This document shows, piece after piece, positions 54,085 through 60,111 of a stretch of 60,111 nt of DNA. The stretch is from Salinivenus lutea (GTDB lineage Bacteria; Bacteroidota; Rhodothermia; Rhodothermales; Salinibacteraceae). The stretch is from the NCBI GenBank assembly GCA_002894685.1, contig NCRC01000024.1:1-60111 (forward strand), read 5' to 3'. The notes under the pieces are model-generated. The model was not told where the DNA came from. It was given only the letters and a program-made list of their open reading frames with translations, and searched no databases. A program made the translations under genes and the position numbers. Every line of letters begins with the position of its first letter. The stretch's first letter is position 1.

Positions 54085-54849
54085 CTATCCCACGATCTCG
54101 ACGACGTTTTGTACGAGAATGACAATCCCCATCAGCACCAGGAAGACGGCGAAGCCGCGCTTCAGACGTGCCTGCGGGACGTAGGCTCCCACCCGCCCCC
54201 CAATCACGCTCCCGACAATGCCGATGGCGGAGAAAATCAGGACCAGGTCCCAGTGAATTGAGAGGCCTGCGGCCTCCATCACGTCAATGTACTTCACGAA
54301 GCCGGCGATGCTCTTCACGGCAATGATCAGGAGGCTCGTCCCGATGGCCAGGTGCATCGACAGGCCGCAAAGCAACACGAGCGCGGGGACAATCAGAAAG
54401 CCCCCGCCGACCCCCACGATGCCGGTCAGCACCCCTACGCCAAACCCATCCATCATCACTTTCCAGAAGACGCGGTCGGGGCCGCCGGTCGCCGTCGGGG
54501 AGCTGCGGCGAAACATCATGACGGCCGCCAGCAGCATCACGCCTGCAAAGATGGTGAGCTGGAGCGCCCCCGGCATGAACTGCGACAGATAGGCCCCCAG
54601 GTACGCCCCCACAATCCCCGGCCCGCCAAACCAGCCCACGCTCCGCCAGCTCACCTGTCCCTGCACCGCAAACGGCACGGCCCCCACCAGACTGATGAGG
54701 GCCACGATGCCGAGCGACTCGGCGATGGCGAGCTTGCTGGGCTCTCCCACCAGGTACACCAGCACCGGCACCGTCAGGATGGAGCCGCCGGACCCGAGAA
54801 GGCCGAGGACGAGCCCGACGAGCAGGGCACCAAGCCAGGCAGCGTACAT
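54085..54849 (-). CDS. TauE/SafE-family sulfite/anion exporter
   Basis: A 254-residue membrane protein with two four-helix repeats: [20 protein letters not shown] at the N terminus and [20 protein letters not shown] mid-chain carry the GxGGG signature of the TSUP family. Members export sulfite, sulfoacetate or related sulfur anions. It lies 64 bases downstream of the persulfide dioxygenase-rhodanese gene, so export of the sulfite that enzyme makes is a sensible role (inference). ATG 54849 starts the first helix. Confidence 0.9.
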
Positions 54850-54913
54850 GGAGCGGGGGCGTTGGACGAGCGGGGAGCGGAGGCTGGGGCGCGGAGAGAC
54901 GCAATTGCACCGG

Positions 54914-56371
54914 CTACGCCGCGACGGCTTCGTCCGTCGGCACGTCGTAGTTCGCAAAGGCGTCGTTCACGTACTTGACCGTACGACCGGTGCGGGCCAG
55001 AAACGCCGAGGCCGCCGCCGCCCGCGCCCCACTCGCGCAGTGCACCACCAGGGTCTGATCTTTCGGAAGGTCGGCCTCGTACTCCGGAAGCCGCGTGTAG
55101 GACGCATTCAGCGCCCCCTCCACGTGTCCGTCCTCCTCGTACTCCGACCGGTAGCGCACGTCGACGACCGTCGTGTTCGGCTCCTGCCGCAGGGCCTCCA
55201 CCTCATCGAACGCAATCTCGTCGATCGACGCGCTCGGCCCGTCATTCTGAAAGTAGCGCTGCAGCGTGTCGGAGGTCGCAATGCCGACCACGTGGTCGTA
55301 TCCGATGCGCACGAGGTCGCGAACAGCCGTCTCCACGTCCGCCTCGTCGACCAGCAGCACGATCGGCGTCGTCTCCTCCTCGACGAGGGAGCCCACCACC
55401 GTGTTGAAGGTCTTGTTCATCGGCGCGTAGAGGCTGCCCGGAATGTGGTGCGCCATGAAGGCCGAGCGGTCCAGGCGCGTGTCGATCAGGAGCGTCTCCT
55501 CATCCGCGGCGACCTCCCGGAGCTCGTGGGTCGTAAGCTCCCGCGGCGATGGCAGATCGCCCAGCACCGGCGGCCCGCCCTTATTGTCTCGCTTCATGCG
55601 GGCAAAGTACATCTGCGGCTCCGGCTGCCCGGCCACGATGGCGTCGACGAACGCGTCCTCGCCCTCGCGCGCCGCCTGAATCATCGGGTTGAACTGCTTC
55701 TCGTAGCCGACCGTCGTCTGCGGCACCGCCCCGAGGGCTTTGCCGCACGATGAGCCGGCCCCGTGCCCCGGCCACACCTGCAGGTGGTCCGGCATCTCCA
55801 GGAAGCGCTGGACGGACTGGTAGAGCGCACGGGCCGAGGGCTCCATCGCCCCCTCCACCTGGGCGGCGGACTCCAGGAGGTCGGGCCGGCCGAGGTCGCC
55901 CACGAACACGAAGTCGCCCGTGAGGAGGCCCATCGGCTCGTTGGCCCCGCCGCCCATATCCGTCACGAGAAAGGACAGGTGCTCCGGCGTGTGGCCGGGC
56001 GTGTGGAGCGCCGTGATCTTGATGTTGCCAATCGCAAACGTGTCGCCGTCCCGGAGCCAGGTCACGTCGTAGTCGCCCCCGCTTTGTTTCGGTTCGCGGG
56101 CCCATTCGTACTTCCAGTTCTCGTCCCCCTCGTCCGAGAGGTACAGCGACGTGTCGAGGCGCTCGGCAAACTCGCGGGCGCCGGACAAGAAATCGGCGTG
56201 GATGTGGGTTTCGGCGACCGCCGTAATCTCCACTCCTTCGTCTTCGGCAAACTCGAGGTACCGGTCGATGTCACGTTCGGGGTCGACGAGCAGGGCCTCG
56301 CCCGTCTGTTGACAGCCTACGAGGTAGGCGTACTGGGCAAGCTTCTCGTCGAAGATCTGTCGGAAGAGCAT
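54914..56371 (-). CDS. Persulfide dioxygenase-like MBL protein fused to two rhodanese domains
   Basis: A 485-residue fusion. Residues 1-250 are an ETHE1/persulfide-dioxygenase-like metallo-beta-lactamase fold: ETHIHADFLSGAREFAE, HTPGHTPEHLSFLV and TGDFVFVGDLGRPDLLE. The usual second HxxxDH-type His reads Phe (HADF). Two rhodanese domains follow: the first (about 285-375, LLIDTRLDRSAFMAHHIPGS) lacks a catalytic cysteine, the second (about 385-485) has HCASGARAA with the active Cys. It should oxidise glutathione- or low-molecular-weight persulfides to sulfite. Between TauE and the YeeE pair. Confidence 0.88.
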   Translation of the reverse strand: MLFRQIFDEKLAQYAYLVGCQQTGEALLVDPERDIDRYLEFAEDEGVEITAVAETHIHADFLSGAREFAERLDTSLYLSDEGDENWKYEWAREPKQSGGDYDVTWLRDGDTFAIGNIKITALHTPGHTPEHLSFLVTDMGGGANEPMGLLTGDFVFVGDLGRPDLLESAAQVEGAMEPSARALYQSVQRFLEMPDHLQVWPGHGAGSSCGKALGAVPQTTVGYEKQFNPMIQAAREGEDAFVDAIVAGQPEPQMYFARMKRDNKGGPPVLGDLPSPRELTTHELREVAADEETLLIDTRLDRSAFMAHHIPGSLYAPMNKTFNTVVGSLVEEETTPIVLLVDEADVETAVRDLVRIGYDHVVGIATSDTLQRYFQNDGPSASIDEIAFDEVEALRQEPNTTVVDVRYRSEYEEDGHVEGALNASYTRLPEYEADLPKDQTLVVHCASGARAAAASAFLARTGRTVKYVNDAFANYDVPTDEAVAA

Positions 56372-56448
56372 AGGGGGAAAGAGGGTTTTGGTAAGAGGCC
56401 AGGGAACGAGGGGAGAAAACAGCGTGCGGTGCGCGGGAGCAAATTTCA

Positions 56449-56512
56449 ATCCGTGAGGAGTGATGCGTGAGCTTCTGATTGGACGCCCCCGCACGGATCA
56501 CTTCTCACGGAT
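56449..56512. repeat. Imperfect 21-bp inverted repeat in the sulfur gene cluster
   Basis: ATCCGTGAGGAGTGATGCGTG (56449-56469) pairs with 56492-56512 with two mismatches and a 22-base loop. It lies just after the YeeE-like stop, on the path to the persulfide dioxygenase gene, so it can form a transcript hairpin. No T-run follows. A similar right-arm word (ACGGATCTTCTCACGGAT) recurs at 59384-59401. Confidence 0.75.
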
Positions 56513-56515
56513 CAG

Positions 56516-56989
56516 TCAGTGTGGCAAATGCGGCTTGAGGTGTCCGTACGTCCAGGCCCCCAGCATGGCACTGAGGAGCGCGACCGCCACCGGCGTCACG
56601 CCCGCGCCGATGAGGGCGTAGATGGGCCCCGGGCACGCCCCGAGCAGGCCCCAGCCCAGACCGAAGGCAATGCCCCCGGCGATCTGGTTGACGCCGCGCT
56701 CGAAGGGCTTATCCGAGATCGAGATCGGCTCGCCCCGAATCGTGGTGGCCTGTATGCGCCGCAGGAGCGCAATGGAGGCCCCCGCCACCACCACGGCGCT
56801 GCCGATGATGCCGTACATGTGAAACGCCTGAAACCGAAACATCTCCTGAATCCGAAACCACGACACCACCTCGCTCTTGACGAGGAGGATGCCGAAGATC
56901 GTCCCCATGCCCAGATAGATCAGGGCATCGGCCAGGCGGAGGCCCGGGCGCGTGTCGGAGGAATGGGTGGACGTACGGGGAGAAGCCAT
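56516..56989 (-). CDS. YeeE/YedE-family half-transporter (DUF6691-like)
   Basis: A 157-residue membrane protein with about four TM helices. The key element is GLGWGLLGACPGPIYALIGA, with a conserved cysteine as in TsuA-type thiosulfate transporters, where the cysteine passes sulfur compounds across the membrane. It pairs with the next gene, which carries the other cysteine motif, so the two together equal one full-length YeeE/TsuA. ATG 56989 was chosen over a TTG upstream. Confidence 0.85.
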   Translation of the reverse strand: MASPRTSTHSSDTRPGLRLADALIYLGMGTIFGILLVKSEVVSWFRIQEMFRFQAFHMYGIIGSAVVVAGASIALLRRIQATTIRGEPISISDKPFERGVNQIAGGIAFGLGWGLLGACPGPIYALIGAGVTPVAVALLSAMLGAWTYGHLKPHLPH

Positions 56990-57043
56990 GGGACTCAAGA
57001 CGGAGGTTCGATTCGTGATGCGTGGGCGGCACGGGGAAGACGA

Positions 57044-57604
57044 CTACAGCAGCAGCGGAAGCAGCCCGTAGGTCGTGAGCAGTCCGCCGATGAAGAAGCC
57101 GACGACCGCCAGCAGGGACGGCCACTGGAGCGTTGCGAGGCCCGTAATGGCGTGCCCCGAGGTACAGCCCCCTGCGTAGCGCGCCCCAAACCCAACCAGA
57201 AAGCCCCCGAGCACGATCGCCACAAAGCCGGGCCCCGTCGTGAGGCTCGACCAGCTAAACAGCTCCGGAGGCACCAGCCCCGAAAACTCCGTCAGGCCCA
57301 GTGCCTGCAGGTCGGCCTTCGTGGCGGAGGAGATGCCCGTGGGCCCGCCCCCGCCCAACAGCTGCACCGCCACCACGCCGCCGAGGAGGATGCCGACGAC
57401 AAACAACAGGTTCCACAACCCGGACGCTTTCCAGTCGTACCGAAAGTACTCGGCCCGTCCCGGCACCGTGGCCGCACAGGCATGCTTCAGGCTCGACGAC
57501 ACCCCGAAGGCCTTGCCGGTCAGCAGCAAAAGCAGGGGCACGAAGAGTCCAATGAGAGGACCGGCAATGTACCACGGCCAGGACGAGAGCAGAAGATCAC
57601 CCAT
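57044..57604 (-). CDS. YeeE/YedE-family half-transporter
   Basis: A 186-residue membrane protein with five or so TM helices. The motif [20 protein letters not shown] holds the conserved cysteine of YeeE/TsuA proteins, which take up thiosulfate in E. coli. Transcribed with the DUF6691-like half (54-base gap). Sulfur anion uptake for the persulfide dioxygenase pathway is likely; direction and substrate are inference. Confidence 0.87.
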
Positions 57605-57748
57605 TCGAACACTTGATGTTTCATGTTATAACAAGCGTGGAGCCACCCCAGGATATTCCCCTTTTGACGGAAGGTTCCCGGGCGTGCTCGTCCGGGCTGC
57701 AGTACCCGTCCGTATTTTCGGGATTCGTTTCTTGCCCTGCCCTCTCTT

Positions 57749-58969
57749 ATGGATCGTTCTCTTCGTCTCGTCTTGCTCGGTGGCGGACACGCCATGCTTC
57801 CCAGCCTCGTCCACGCCGACACGTGGACGCAAAGGGGCATCGACGTGACCCTGGTCGACCCTCAGCGCCACCTCTACTACTCCGGCATGGTCCCCGAGTA
57901 CCTGGGCGGTGTGTACGACGAAGCAGACGTGCGGATTGATCTGGCGGCCCAGGCCCGCGCGAACGGGGCATCGTTCGTGCAAGAGGCCGCCGCGGCGATC
58001 GATCCGGACGCCCGCGTGGTCGAGACGCGAGCCGGGGACGCCCTTCCGTTCGACGTGCTGGCAATCAACGTGGGGAGTGCCAACCCGGCGGTGCCCGCGG
58101 GCGCCATCCCCACCAAGCCCATTGCCCACATTCGCCCCCTGGCCTCGCGCATTGAACAGACGCTCGCCGAGGCGACCGCCCGGCTCCGCCTCGTCGTGGT
58201 GGGGGGCGGCGCCGCCGGCACCGAGGTGGCGCTGAACGTGACGGGACGCTTTGCCGGGGCCGACCGGCTCGGGGACCTGGAGCTGACGATCGTCGAACAG
58301 GCCGATCGGCTCCTGCCCGGCTTTCCCGCCGGCCTGCGCACCGATGCGACCAACCGGCTCCGCCGGCGCGGCGCCACCGTCTCTACCGGCACCACCGTCA
58401 CCAACGTCGAGGGCACGGGCGACGCCCCCGCCGCCGTCCACACCGACACCGCCTCTCCCCTTGCGGCGGATGCTGTGCTCTGGGCCACCGGCACAGTCGG
58501 CCCGCCCCTCCTGCACGACAGTCCCCTCCCAACCAACGATCGCGGATTCGTCCGCACGACCCGCTCGCTGCAGGTCCGCACACATCCCCGCCTCTTCGCC
58601 GCGGGCGACTGCGCCTCGATTGAGGACCTCGACCTCGCCCGGGTGGGCGTACACGCCGTGAAGCAGGGCCCCACCCTCCGCGCCAACCTCCATCACACGC
58701 TCCAGGCCCTCGGCGCGGGGGCCGGTGTGCCGTCTCCTACCGAGCTGCAGACGTTTCGGCCGTACCCCCTCACGCCCCTCATCCTGTCGACCGGCACAGC
58801 GGACGGGCTCTGGACGGCCGGATCGATGTGGGCCGCCCATCCATGGCTCCTTCGGCTGAAGCACGGGGTCGACCGCCGCTGGATGCGGCCGTATGCCCCG
58901 GACCGGTGGGGCACGACGTCCTGGCGCGAGCAGTTTGGCGCGGAAGCTGCGATCGGAACCGGGGCCTGA
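57749..58969 (+). CDS. FAD/NAD(P)-dependent oxidoreductase (NDH-2/SQR-like; N-terminal-to-SelD type)
   Basis: A 406-residue flavoprotein. The FAD motif is LVLLGGGHAMLPSL near the N terminus, HLYYSGMVPEYLGGVYDEAD at 43-62 matches the oxidoreductases found fused to SelD in some bacteria, and a second dinucleotide motif RLVVVGGGAAGTEVALN lies at about 148-164; LFAAGDCASI near 280 is the C-terminal FAD site. NDH-2 and sulfide:quinone reductase are relatives. Given the sulfur neighbours, sulfide or persulfide oxidation is a reasonable guess. Divergent from the YeeE pair. Confidence 0.82.
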   Translation: MDRSLRLVLLGGGHAMLPSLVHADTWTQRGIDVTLVDPQRHLYYSGMVPEYLGGVYDEADVRIDLAAQARANGASFVQEAAAAIDPDARVVETRAGDALPFDVLAINVGSANPAVPAGAIPTKPIAHIRPLASRIEQTLAEATARLRLVVVGGGAAGTEVALNVTGRFAGADRLGDLELTIVEQADRLLPGFPAGLRTDATNRLRRRGATVSTGTTVTNVEGTGDAPAAVHTDTASPLAADAVLWATGTVGPPLLHDSPLPTNDRGFVRTTRSLQVRTHPRLFAAGDCASIEDLDLARVGVHAVKQGPTLRANLHHTLQALGAGAGVPSPTELQTFRPYPLTPLILSTGTADGLWTAGSMWAAHPWLLRLKHGVDRRWMRPYAPDRWGTTSWREQFGAEAAIGTGA

Positions 58970-58979
58970 TGGCTCCCGC

Positions 58980-59261
58980 CTACGCCGCAATTCCGTCTGC
59001 GTCTACCGGGGTCCACCACCCCTCCGCCACAAGACGCGCCACCTCCCGCTTCGCCCACGCCTTGTACCGGAGCTCCGGCCGGTACTCCACCGCGCGACCG
59101 TTCTCCGTAAGCCACTCGAAGCACACGCGGGTCGACGTTTCAAACAGCACCCCCAGCGTGCACCCCTTGCCACAGAGACAGTACTTGTAGTCGTGCTGCC
59201 CCGGACGCTCCCGCACTTCAAAGTCGACGGGCGCCTCTTTCTTGAATTCGGCCAGACACAT
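58980..59261 (-). CDS. Cysteine-rich small protein of unknown function
   Basis: A 93-residue soluble protein with five cysteines, including CLCGKGC near residue 28. Downstream, STRVCFEWLTENGRAVEYRP and KAWAKREVARLVAEGWWTPV form an alpha/beta body. I do not recognise a family. The cluster could hold zinc or an iron-sulfur centre. Its promoter region contains two TTTAGA-N5-TCTAAA palindromes and it is divergent from another cysteine protein, near an Rrf2 regulator. Confidence 0.65.
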   Translation of the reverse strand: MCLAEFKKEAPVDFEVRERPGQHDYKYCLCGKGCTLGVLFETSTRVCFEWLTENGRAVEYRPELRYKAWAKREVARLVAEGWWTPVDADGIAA

Positions 59262-59290
59262 AGACGGCGAGGGAAGACTTGGAATCGGGA

Positions 59291-59309
59291 GTTTAGATAG
59301 AGTCTAAAT
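59291..59309. promoter_or_regulatory. TTTAGA-N5-TCTAAA palindrome, site A
   Basis: TTTAGA (59292-59297) and TCTAAA (59303-59308) around TAGAG, 30 bases upstream of the leftward cysteine-protein gene. A second copy lies at 59401-59418. Candidate operator of the Rrf2 regulator next door. Confidence 0.65.
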
Positions 59310-59400
59310 AAACCAAGTCAGTGGATTCGCGCAACTCTCTCCCCCGAAGTCCCGGCCGATCTCCCCGAAAATCGGGGCACAGGACGGATCTTCTCACGGA

Positions 59401-59418
59401 TTTAGACTGCCTCTAAAT
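59401..59418. promoter_or_regulatory. TTTAGA-N5-TCTAAA palindrome, site B
   Basis: Exact copy of the arms of site A with a different centre (CTGCC), 88 bases before the rightward 59506 gene. Two matching palindromes in one divergent promoter region argue for a real operator. Confidence 0.65.
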
Positions 59419-59505
59419 GTTGGCCGCGGCGGATCTCCGGCCTGCCCGCTCTGTTCGGATCTTTCCTCTGACTCCTCTCCCCGTACACAACCCAGCCTCC
59501 ACACC

Positions 59506-59715
59506 ATGGCCCACGACATCGAACCGATGTGCAAGTCGTGTCAGCATCTGAACCGGGACCGAGACGACGAGGCGGTCTGTGACGCCTTCCCCGAAGGCAT
59601 TCCGGAGGAGATCTGGCGCAATCAACACGACCACCACGAGCCGTATCCGGGCGACCAGGGCGTGCGCTTCGAAGCCATGCCGGTGCCCGAGGAGCAGGCC
59701 AAAATGGCAGCCTAA
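59506..59715 (+). CDS. Small zinc-ribbon-like protein
   Basis: A 69-residue protein. CKSCQHL (residues 9-15) and a later cysteine in [14 protein letters not shown], with HDHHEP following, give a small metal-binding pattern, a compact protein seen in many bacteria without a known role. ATG 59506 follows the divergent palindromes, so it probably belongs to the same regulon as the cysteine protein to the left. Confidence 0.75.
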
Positions 59716-59740
59716 TCCGTTCCTCTATTCTCGCACCAAC

Positions 59741-59770
59741 GGGCCGATCCGTCTCTCCTCGGGTCGGCCC
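59741..59770. terminator. Bidirectional hairpin between convergent genes
   Basis: GGGCCGA and TCGGCCC pair around a 16-base loop, between the stop codons of the 59506 gene and the Rrf2 gene. No clear T-run, so termination is inferred from position. Confidence 0.5.
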
Positions 59771-59809
59771 ATCGGCATGTGGGCCCATGGTCCCACGCTC
59801 AATTCTTCC

Positions 59810-60061
59810 CTATGTCTCCAGGTCAGACCGCGAATCACCGGCGCCCTCAATAAGCGGGGCGAGACGCACGTCTGGGACCTCCGCCAGCGTCGTATCCCGA
59901 AACATCTCTTCGATGCGCCCCCGCTCGTCCGTCCAGTGCTCGTGCAGCGGACACGGTTCGGCCTCCCCACAGCCCGGCAGGCCCAGCACACACTCCTCGA
60001 AGAGATCGTCTCCGTCGATGGCCACGACAATCTCGTGGAGCCGGATGGCATCCGGCTCCAC
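59810..60061 (-). CDS. Rrf2-family regulator, C-terminal part (partial)
   Basis: The visible C-terminal 83 residues match an Rrf2/IscR/NsrR-type regulator: IRLHEIVVAIDG (end of the wing and dimer helix), then the cluster CVLGLPGCGEAEPCPLHEHW with three cysteines (CX6CX5C) that can hold an iron-sulfur cluster, then FRDTTLAEVPDV. The N-terminal HTH lies upstream, where the sequence turns into a perfect palindrome and the window ends. The start given is the GTG of the open frame and is not the true start; the frame stays open to the window edge. Confidence 0.75.
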   Translation of the reverse strand: MEPDAIRLHEIVVAIDGDDLFEECVLGLPGCGEAEPCPLHEHWTDERGRIEEMFRDTTLAEVPDVRLAPLIEGAGDSRSDLET

Positions 60062-60111
60062 GAGATTGTCGTGGCCATCGACGGAGACGATCTCTTCGAG
60101 GAGTGTGTGCT
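59985..60111. repeat. Perfect 62-bp-arm inverted repeat reaching the window end
   Basis: Bases 59985-60046 are exactly repeated in inverse orientation as 60050-60111, with a 3-base centre (GGC). It lies inside the coding sequence of the Rrf2 gene and continues to the last base. A perfect coding palindrome of this size at an end suggests a chimeric end or a hairpin artefact of assembly; a real inversion duplication is less likely. Confidence 0.9.

Follow-up and report, generated by a model that had tools for sequence, protein, structure and literature searches.

Twin palindromes between two divergent Salinivenus lutea genes are probably Fur boxes controlling two uncharacterized small proteins

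Fur boxes are among the closest known counterparts of the operators considered here. In Riemerella anatipestifer, as the accessible part of the source reports (PMC5609570), the Fur box is predicted as ATTTAGAATTATTCTAAAT and four promoters were shifted by purified Fur. The consensus has both arms exact, but none of the 11 boxes tabled there does, the four bound promoters included, and the closest of these four bound boxes are one base off the consensus. A further Riemerella box, that of rhuB (ATTTAGAATTATCCTAAAT), was bound by Fur in a gel shift for which the accessible text states Fe2+ to be necessary (PMC10986502). The classical Fur box is given as GATAATGATAATCATTATC in the available portion of a review (PMC11353095). 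Among the matches listed in a search of the literature naming Salinibacter or Rhodothermota, nothing concerned an iron regulon.

We analyzed a window of 60,111 bp, by which we mean the whole stretch of Salinivenus lutea DNA under study. Near its end, an earlier note made from the raw letters had singled out two palindromes of the form TTTAGA-N5-TCTAAA in a 244-bp divergent region, and both proved to have exact arms and spacing within an intergenic region of precisely that length (59262-59505). The features of the locus are as follows:

58980-59261, minus strand: left gene, encoding the 93-aa protein P0001 with one invariant Cys in a GKGC motif; no family match above the curated cut-off
59292-59308, no strand assigned: operator 1, a palindrome resembling a Fur box (TTTAGATAGAGTCTAAA), 30 bp before the left-gene ATG
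59401-59417, no strand assigned: operator 2, a palindrome resembling a Fur box (TTTAGACTGCCTCTAAA), 88 bp before the right-gene ATG
59506-59715, plus strand: right gene, encoding the 69-aa protein P0002 with an invariant CxxCxH...C...DHH...PYPGD set; matches phrog_33375
59810-60061, minus strand: Rrf2-family regulator, C-terminal part only, truncated at the contig end; in our judgment not what regulates the palindromes
59985-60111, no strand assigned: perfect 63+1+63-nt hairpin (63-nt arms, 1-nt loop) in the last 127 nt, at the contig end

Insofar as the accessible part of the Riemerella source gives it, the consensus there and the window sites have in common all 12 arm bases (TTTAGA/TCTAAA) and the five-base spacing, with identity at 14/19 positions for operator 1 and 15/19 for operator 2; the inner bases differ, being TAGAG and CTGCC in the window versus ATTAT in the consensus. 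The individual boxes tabled in that part of the source are less perfect than the consensus. Both systems have boxes close to start codons and TonB-receptor genes among the targets, again going by what the source makes accessible, but the targets in the window, unlike those in Riemerella, are two uncharacterized small proteins, the two divergent promoters each having a box of their own. Read as a Bacteroidota-type box (ATTTAGA-N5-TCTAAAT, which can be framed as 7-1-7), the core is exact at both sites and the outer A/T is found at three of the four flanks, site 1 having a G on the left. A window site can also be read in the 7-1-7 inverted-repeat frame of the classical box (TTAGATA-G-AGTCTAA), but the window sites have TTAGA in place of TGATA. 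We consider it quite likely, judging from the sequence, that the twin palindromes are Bacteroidota-type Fur boxes, and iron control by Fur is our best reading of the locus.

Exact sites of this kind are more numerous than expected. A first-order Markov model of the window gave an expectation of 3e-5 exact palindromes per window and 0.002 per 3.55 Mb, against four seen in the S. lutea genome by the scan for the 17-bp pattern that the earlier note had proposed as a check. Shuffled versions of the window had a mean of 0.09 matches with up to two mismatches, and one of 100 shuffles reached two. Besides the twin palindromes, no further match with up to two mismatches was found in the window, and therefore none lies near its sulfur genes. 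In the whole genome, matches at this tolerance were found in 21 places versus 23 for the reversed pattern, which served as the independent control for motif counts. Given the lack of excess over this control, only exact and conserved sites carry weight.

Outside the gene pair, the genome has just two exact sites. One is centered 38 bp before the gene for an ABC-transporter solute-binding protein (SBP_bac), with a permease-like gene behind it; Pfam gives SBP_bac only, and by eye the sequence is probably that of an iron(III)-type binding protein. The other is centered 20 bp before the gene for a POR-family 2-oxoacid:ferredoxin oxidoreductase. Three additional sites have one mismatch and precede, respectively, a short lipoprotein-like frame followed by a TonB-dependent receptor, the gene for a 124-aa protein beside lgt, and a MerR-type regulator gene. 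By eye, look-alikes of the first two of these targets lie under exact sites in relatives.

We scanned 41 genomes, comprising that of S. lutea and 40 relatives of its genus, family, and order. Exact sites were present in 35 of them, with hand sums of 91 sites versus six for the reversed control, whose matches fell in five genomes (G027, G030, G032, G037, and G038; one or two each). Classing by target covered the 63 exact sites in fetched loci, out of the 91 by hand sum; the 28 left out were all 17 sites of G004, G005, G015, G024, G027, G028, G037, and G040, together with some of those in G002 (five of six), G003 (two of four), G007 (one of two), G021 (two of three), and G022 (one of two). A recurrent target gene starts within 450 bp of 59 of the 63 classed sites, the other four being without any. 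The classes were each gene of the pair (21 sites for each gene, most of them shared), binding protein (16), TonB receptor (nine; the class TBDT2 largely repeats TBDT1 matches and was not counted separately), oxidoreductase (six), and overlapping classes of small proteins of 108-135 aa (three to four sites each); because the reference proteins were drawn from the same sites, these classes are a description and not an independent test. The motif recurs before iron-acquisition genes both in S. lutea and in its relatives, and several of the recurrent targets are iron-type genes. The small proteins of about 108-135 aa lie under the same box in the order (L141, L154, L160, L136, and L020), and similar-looking ones, by eye, lie under it elsewhere in the phylum (L295, L296, and L298). 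No Pfam match was found for four small proteins (107-135 aa) under this kind of box.

The box has been kept together with the gene pair. All 21 loci found for the right-hand gene retain at least one site with up to two mismatches within 400 bp upstream; 19 have two sites, and 18 have an exact one. Across 14 intergenic regions, 21-54 bp separate the left gene from the start of the left site and 86-108 bp the right gene from the end of the right site, whereas the start-to-start spacing between the two sites varies from 109 to 188 bp. With this layout, the two look like separate operators, each serving one promoter. The proposal of the earlier note that the palindromes are operators therefore holds up, with one per divergent gene. 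The variable spacing in these 14 regions led us to drop the idea of a pair of sites that loop at a fixed helical phase. Of the 25 genomes of the family, 18 have both genes, as do two of the 16 genomes from other families of the order; no match to either was found in the same-genus genomes G004 and G005 (93%-94% complete). In Longimonas halophila, the gene beside the left gene (L249:7987-9387) is an NRAMP-type metal transporter look-alike, as read by eye from the start of its sequence.

Both genes had been described as encoding cysteine proteins. The description suits the right protein, in which C9, C12, C25, H14, D42, H43, and H44 are invariant in 17 sequences, but it fits the left protein poorly, C34 being its only invariant Cys in 15 sequences. 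No Pfam or NCBIfam model matched either protein above cut-off. The predicted fold of the left protein is beta-rich, with five strands and a mean pLDDT of 92. Its best solved matches are weak (Foldseek E at least 0.083), and a comparison with residues 3-63 of TnsB gave a VIA Z of 5.8 (61 aligned, rmsd 2.7); with structural matches this weak, the fold gives no pointer to function. The model of the right protein has a mean pLDDT of 70.5, and among the only four chains compared with it, none gave a structural match with a Z of 2 or more. The family of the right protein matches phrog_33375, a phage family without assigned function, and two of the 17 members of its alignment, the right protein not among them, weakly match DUF6207 (best E 0.0016). 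A Bipolaricaulota contig has a relative of the right protein amid structural genes of phage-like appearance (L255:9986-10180). At a guess, this Cys/His-rich protein might bind or handle iron or another metal.

At the level of the phylum, a 19-bp form of the box was found in 73 of 198 genomes (at least 95% complete), with 102 sites versus 16 for the control (hand sums). We read the neighbors by eye at 30 loci, one site each. Those recognized include hemA in eight cases; haem-oxygenase-like genes, TonB receptors, and NuoB in two each; and SufB, SufS, a SufA-like gene, NqrA, an SdhC-like gene, and Rrf2 once each. Many neighbors at these 30 loci are, by eye, not iron genes, being unrelated or unknown, or have no gene start near. 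In seven other Bacteroidota loci (L280, L282, and L285-L289), hemA flanks the box on one side and a divergent look-alike, by eye, of an AraC-type regulator on the other.

A Fur protein is encoded in the S. lutea genome by a single gene matching PF01475 (1.6e-30; contig C23), and the top solved relatives of this protein are ferric uptake regulators. The Fur family (PF01475) was found in 37 of the 41 genomes and in all 27 that are at least 90% complete and at most 5% contaminated. Five of the 37 have Fur and lack an exact site (G020, G025, G033, G034, and G036), and three genomes have exact sites and no detected Fur (G019, G023, and G024; 62%-85% complete). As to Fur autoregulation, none of the 30 Fur loci scanned has an exact box, and one, in G015, has a box with two mismatches.

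The Fur helix reads SRATVYN or close to it, versus ATVYR in the top-scoring solved Fur chains. The helix residue N was found in 30 of 30 order-level Fur loci and in 17 of the 18 best Fur matches of other phylum genomes (S in the remaining one), a count that leaves out eight weak second matches. Parsing recovered the helix pattern in 45 of 58 loci; five of the other 13 were read, four of these being best matches with N and one a second paralogue with R. From these sequences we infer that residue N may be linked to the TTAGA-type box. The classical-type 15-mer TGATAATNATTATCA occurs in one place in the S. lutea genome with up to two mismatches. Across the 41 genomes, no exact copy was among the matches listed, and copies with up to two mismatches numbered 117 versus 31 for the control (hand sums), an excess that suggests Fur might use the classical type too.

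Several other readings of the palindromes were weighed. That they arose by chance and have no function would agree with the lack of excess in the S. lutea genome at up to two mismatches, but the excess of exact sites over expectation and the retention of a site at every homologous locus leave this reading with next to no probability. The earlier note had favored the neighboring Rrf2 protein, which would bind the palindromes and sense redox or sulfur state through a cysteine-ligated cluster. Control of iron genes is indeed a function of Rrf2 regulators of the IscR/RirA kind, and in some systems the operators of the family (IscR, NsrR, RirA) serve iron-sulfur or redox genes. About 95 bp separate the right gene from the Rrf2 gene fragment, and in one phylum genome (L297), the motif is found 43 bp before an Rrf2 gene. 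The regulator gene that the note placed beside the palindromes is real, but only a C-terminal piece is there, which covers positions 68-129 of PF02082 and scores 28.9 bits, marginally short of the cut-off (30). Unlike the operators of this family, moreover, the palindrome motif does not follow detected Rrf2 genes: PF02082 has no match in 12 of the 41 genomes, and 10 of these 12 have exact sites, among them G032, G037, and G038, which are 97%-99% complete with control counts of one each (the other seven are 62%-86% complete). In G032 and G038, the sites include ones before TonB-receptor and binding-protein genes. An exact site was found at one of 30 Rrf2 loci, and the weak PF02082 match there is the same frame as a DtxR gene. 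The Rrf2 gene of S. iranica stands about 6.8 kb from the pair, behind TonB-receptor-like and other genes, and where the two share a contig in the genus, as in six further genomes, the distance is about 5 to 17 kb, so that close adjacency is seen only in S. lutea. Rrf2 was dropped as the regulator in view of the sites in Rrf2-less genomes and its distance from the pair in S. iranica, and we now regard it as a most improbable binder of the palindromes. The redox or sulfur signal fares no better, since the motif recurs before iron-type genes and its arms are those of the published Fur-box consensus. Sulfur genes do lie beside the pair in the window and in S. iranica, as had been noted for the former, but none was recognized by eye, from sequence starts, in the loci of S. 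altiplanensis, Longimonas, and Roseithermus; one point for sulfur is that the exact site at the oxidoreductase gene lies just behind a PAPS-reductase-like gene (by eye). The sulfur cluster of the window (54085-58969) comprises a TauE-like exporter, a metallo-beta-lactamase/rhodanese fusion, two YeeE/YedE-like transporters of half size, and an FAD oxidoreductase whose resemblance to TIGR03169 falls below the cut-off of that model.

A metal regulator of the DtxR family (IdeR/MntR-like) was the initial candidate because of two genomes: G019, in which about 440 bp separate dtxR from an exact site, and G018, with dtxR on the same contig as one. The twin palindromes also begin with TTTAG and end with CTAAA, as does a different palindrome, TTTAGSCNNGSCTAAA. 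Yet exact sites occur in six of the seven genomes without a usable match to a 12-protein DtxR alignment (G015, 98% complete in three contigs; G004, 94%; the other four, 62%-83%), and the exact motif was found at only one of 30 DtxR loci. It is TTTAGSCNNGSCTAAA that lies near dtxR, being present within one mismatch at six of the 30 DtxR loci and at none of 60 Rrf2 and Fur loci; it occurs once in each of 10 of the 41 genomes, versus two for the control. Neighbors were taken from nine of its loci (L261 left out): four have dtxR, three an ArsP_2-like gene, and three a TroA-like gene, six of the nine having at least one of these (by eye). ArsP_2 near TTTAGSCNNGSCTAAA in the S. lutea genome was confirmed by Pfam. 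Compared with the twin boxes, TTTAGSCNNGSCTAAA has a spacing one base shorter, GC-rich inner bases, and a location near dtxR and Mn-type transport genes, and it is probably the MntR/DtxR operator of the group. Examples of TTTAGSCNNGSCTAAA near dtxR or before TroA-like or ArsP_2-like genes are at L185:4695-4710, L264, L262, L260, L258, and L259. DtxR was dropped on account of the sites in DtxR-less genomes and of this different palindrome, and the chance that it binds the twin boxes seems slim. In the arguments from absence, the strong cases are G032, G037, and G038 for Rrf2 and G015 and G004 for DtxR, most other genomes in both being incomplete. The regulator families searched were Rrf2, DtxR, and Fur, which leaves room for a further regulator, for example, of the CRP/FNR or MarR type; we hold this to be very unlikely, given arms that equal the Fur-box consensus in the accessible part of the published account and several recurrent targets of iron type.

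The hairpin at the contig end is probably an assembly artifact; assemblers commonly use k-mers of its length, 127 nt. Another contig of the same genome has an N-terminal Rrf2 piece at its start (C39:31-222). In S. iranica, the segment between the right gene and Rrf2 (L238 10210-17023) holds TonB-receptor-like, amidohydrolase-like, and response-regulator-like genes, and in S. altiplanensis (L241), a receptor-like gene likewise comes next after the right gene. The corresponding interval of the window (59715-59810) is without this segment of about 6.8 kb, through either a deletion or an assembly effect.

If the palindromes are docking sites for Fur, both genes are likely switched on when iron is scarce. 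For S. lutea, we infer binding and repression by Fur along the following lines. With iron plentiful, Fe2+-loaded Fur would bind each 7-1-7 box and block both divergent promoters; with iron scarce, Fur would be released from the boxes and both small proteins would be made. Co-induced elsewhere in the genome would be iron uptake (the ABC-type binding protein and the TonB-dependent receptor) and the ferredoxin-linked 2-oxoacid oxidoreductase. It is conceivable, although we put it forward tentatively and would not yet lean toward it, that the two proteins form an unrecognized, iron-starvation-induced module of the Rhodothermota, a conserved Fur target that perhaps binds or reallocates iron through the CxxCxH...C...DHH set of the right protein, and that the recognition helix of the Bacteroidota Fur (SRATVYN) has changed to match the TTAGA-type box.

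The palindromes themselves are very probably of a known kind, and the new part would be the two uncharacterized targets, kept under the same control in relatives. A regulator and a signal are now offered for a palindrome that the raw sequence had suggested was sulfur-linked. The results also outline, by computation, the iron regulon shared by Salinibacter, Salinivenus, and their relatives, and the two small protein families, which keep a box at every one of the 21 loci found, are candidates that can be tested as new iron-homeostasis factors.
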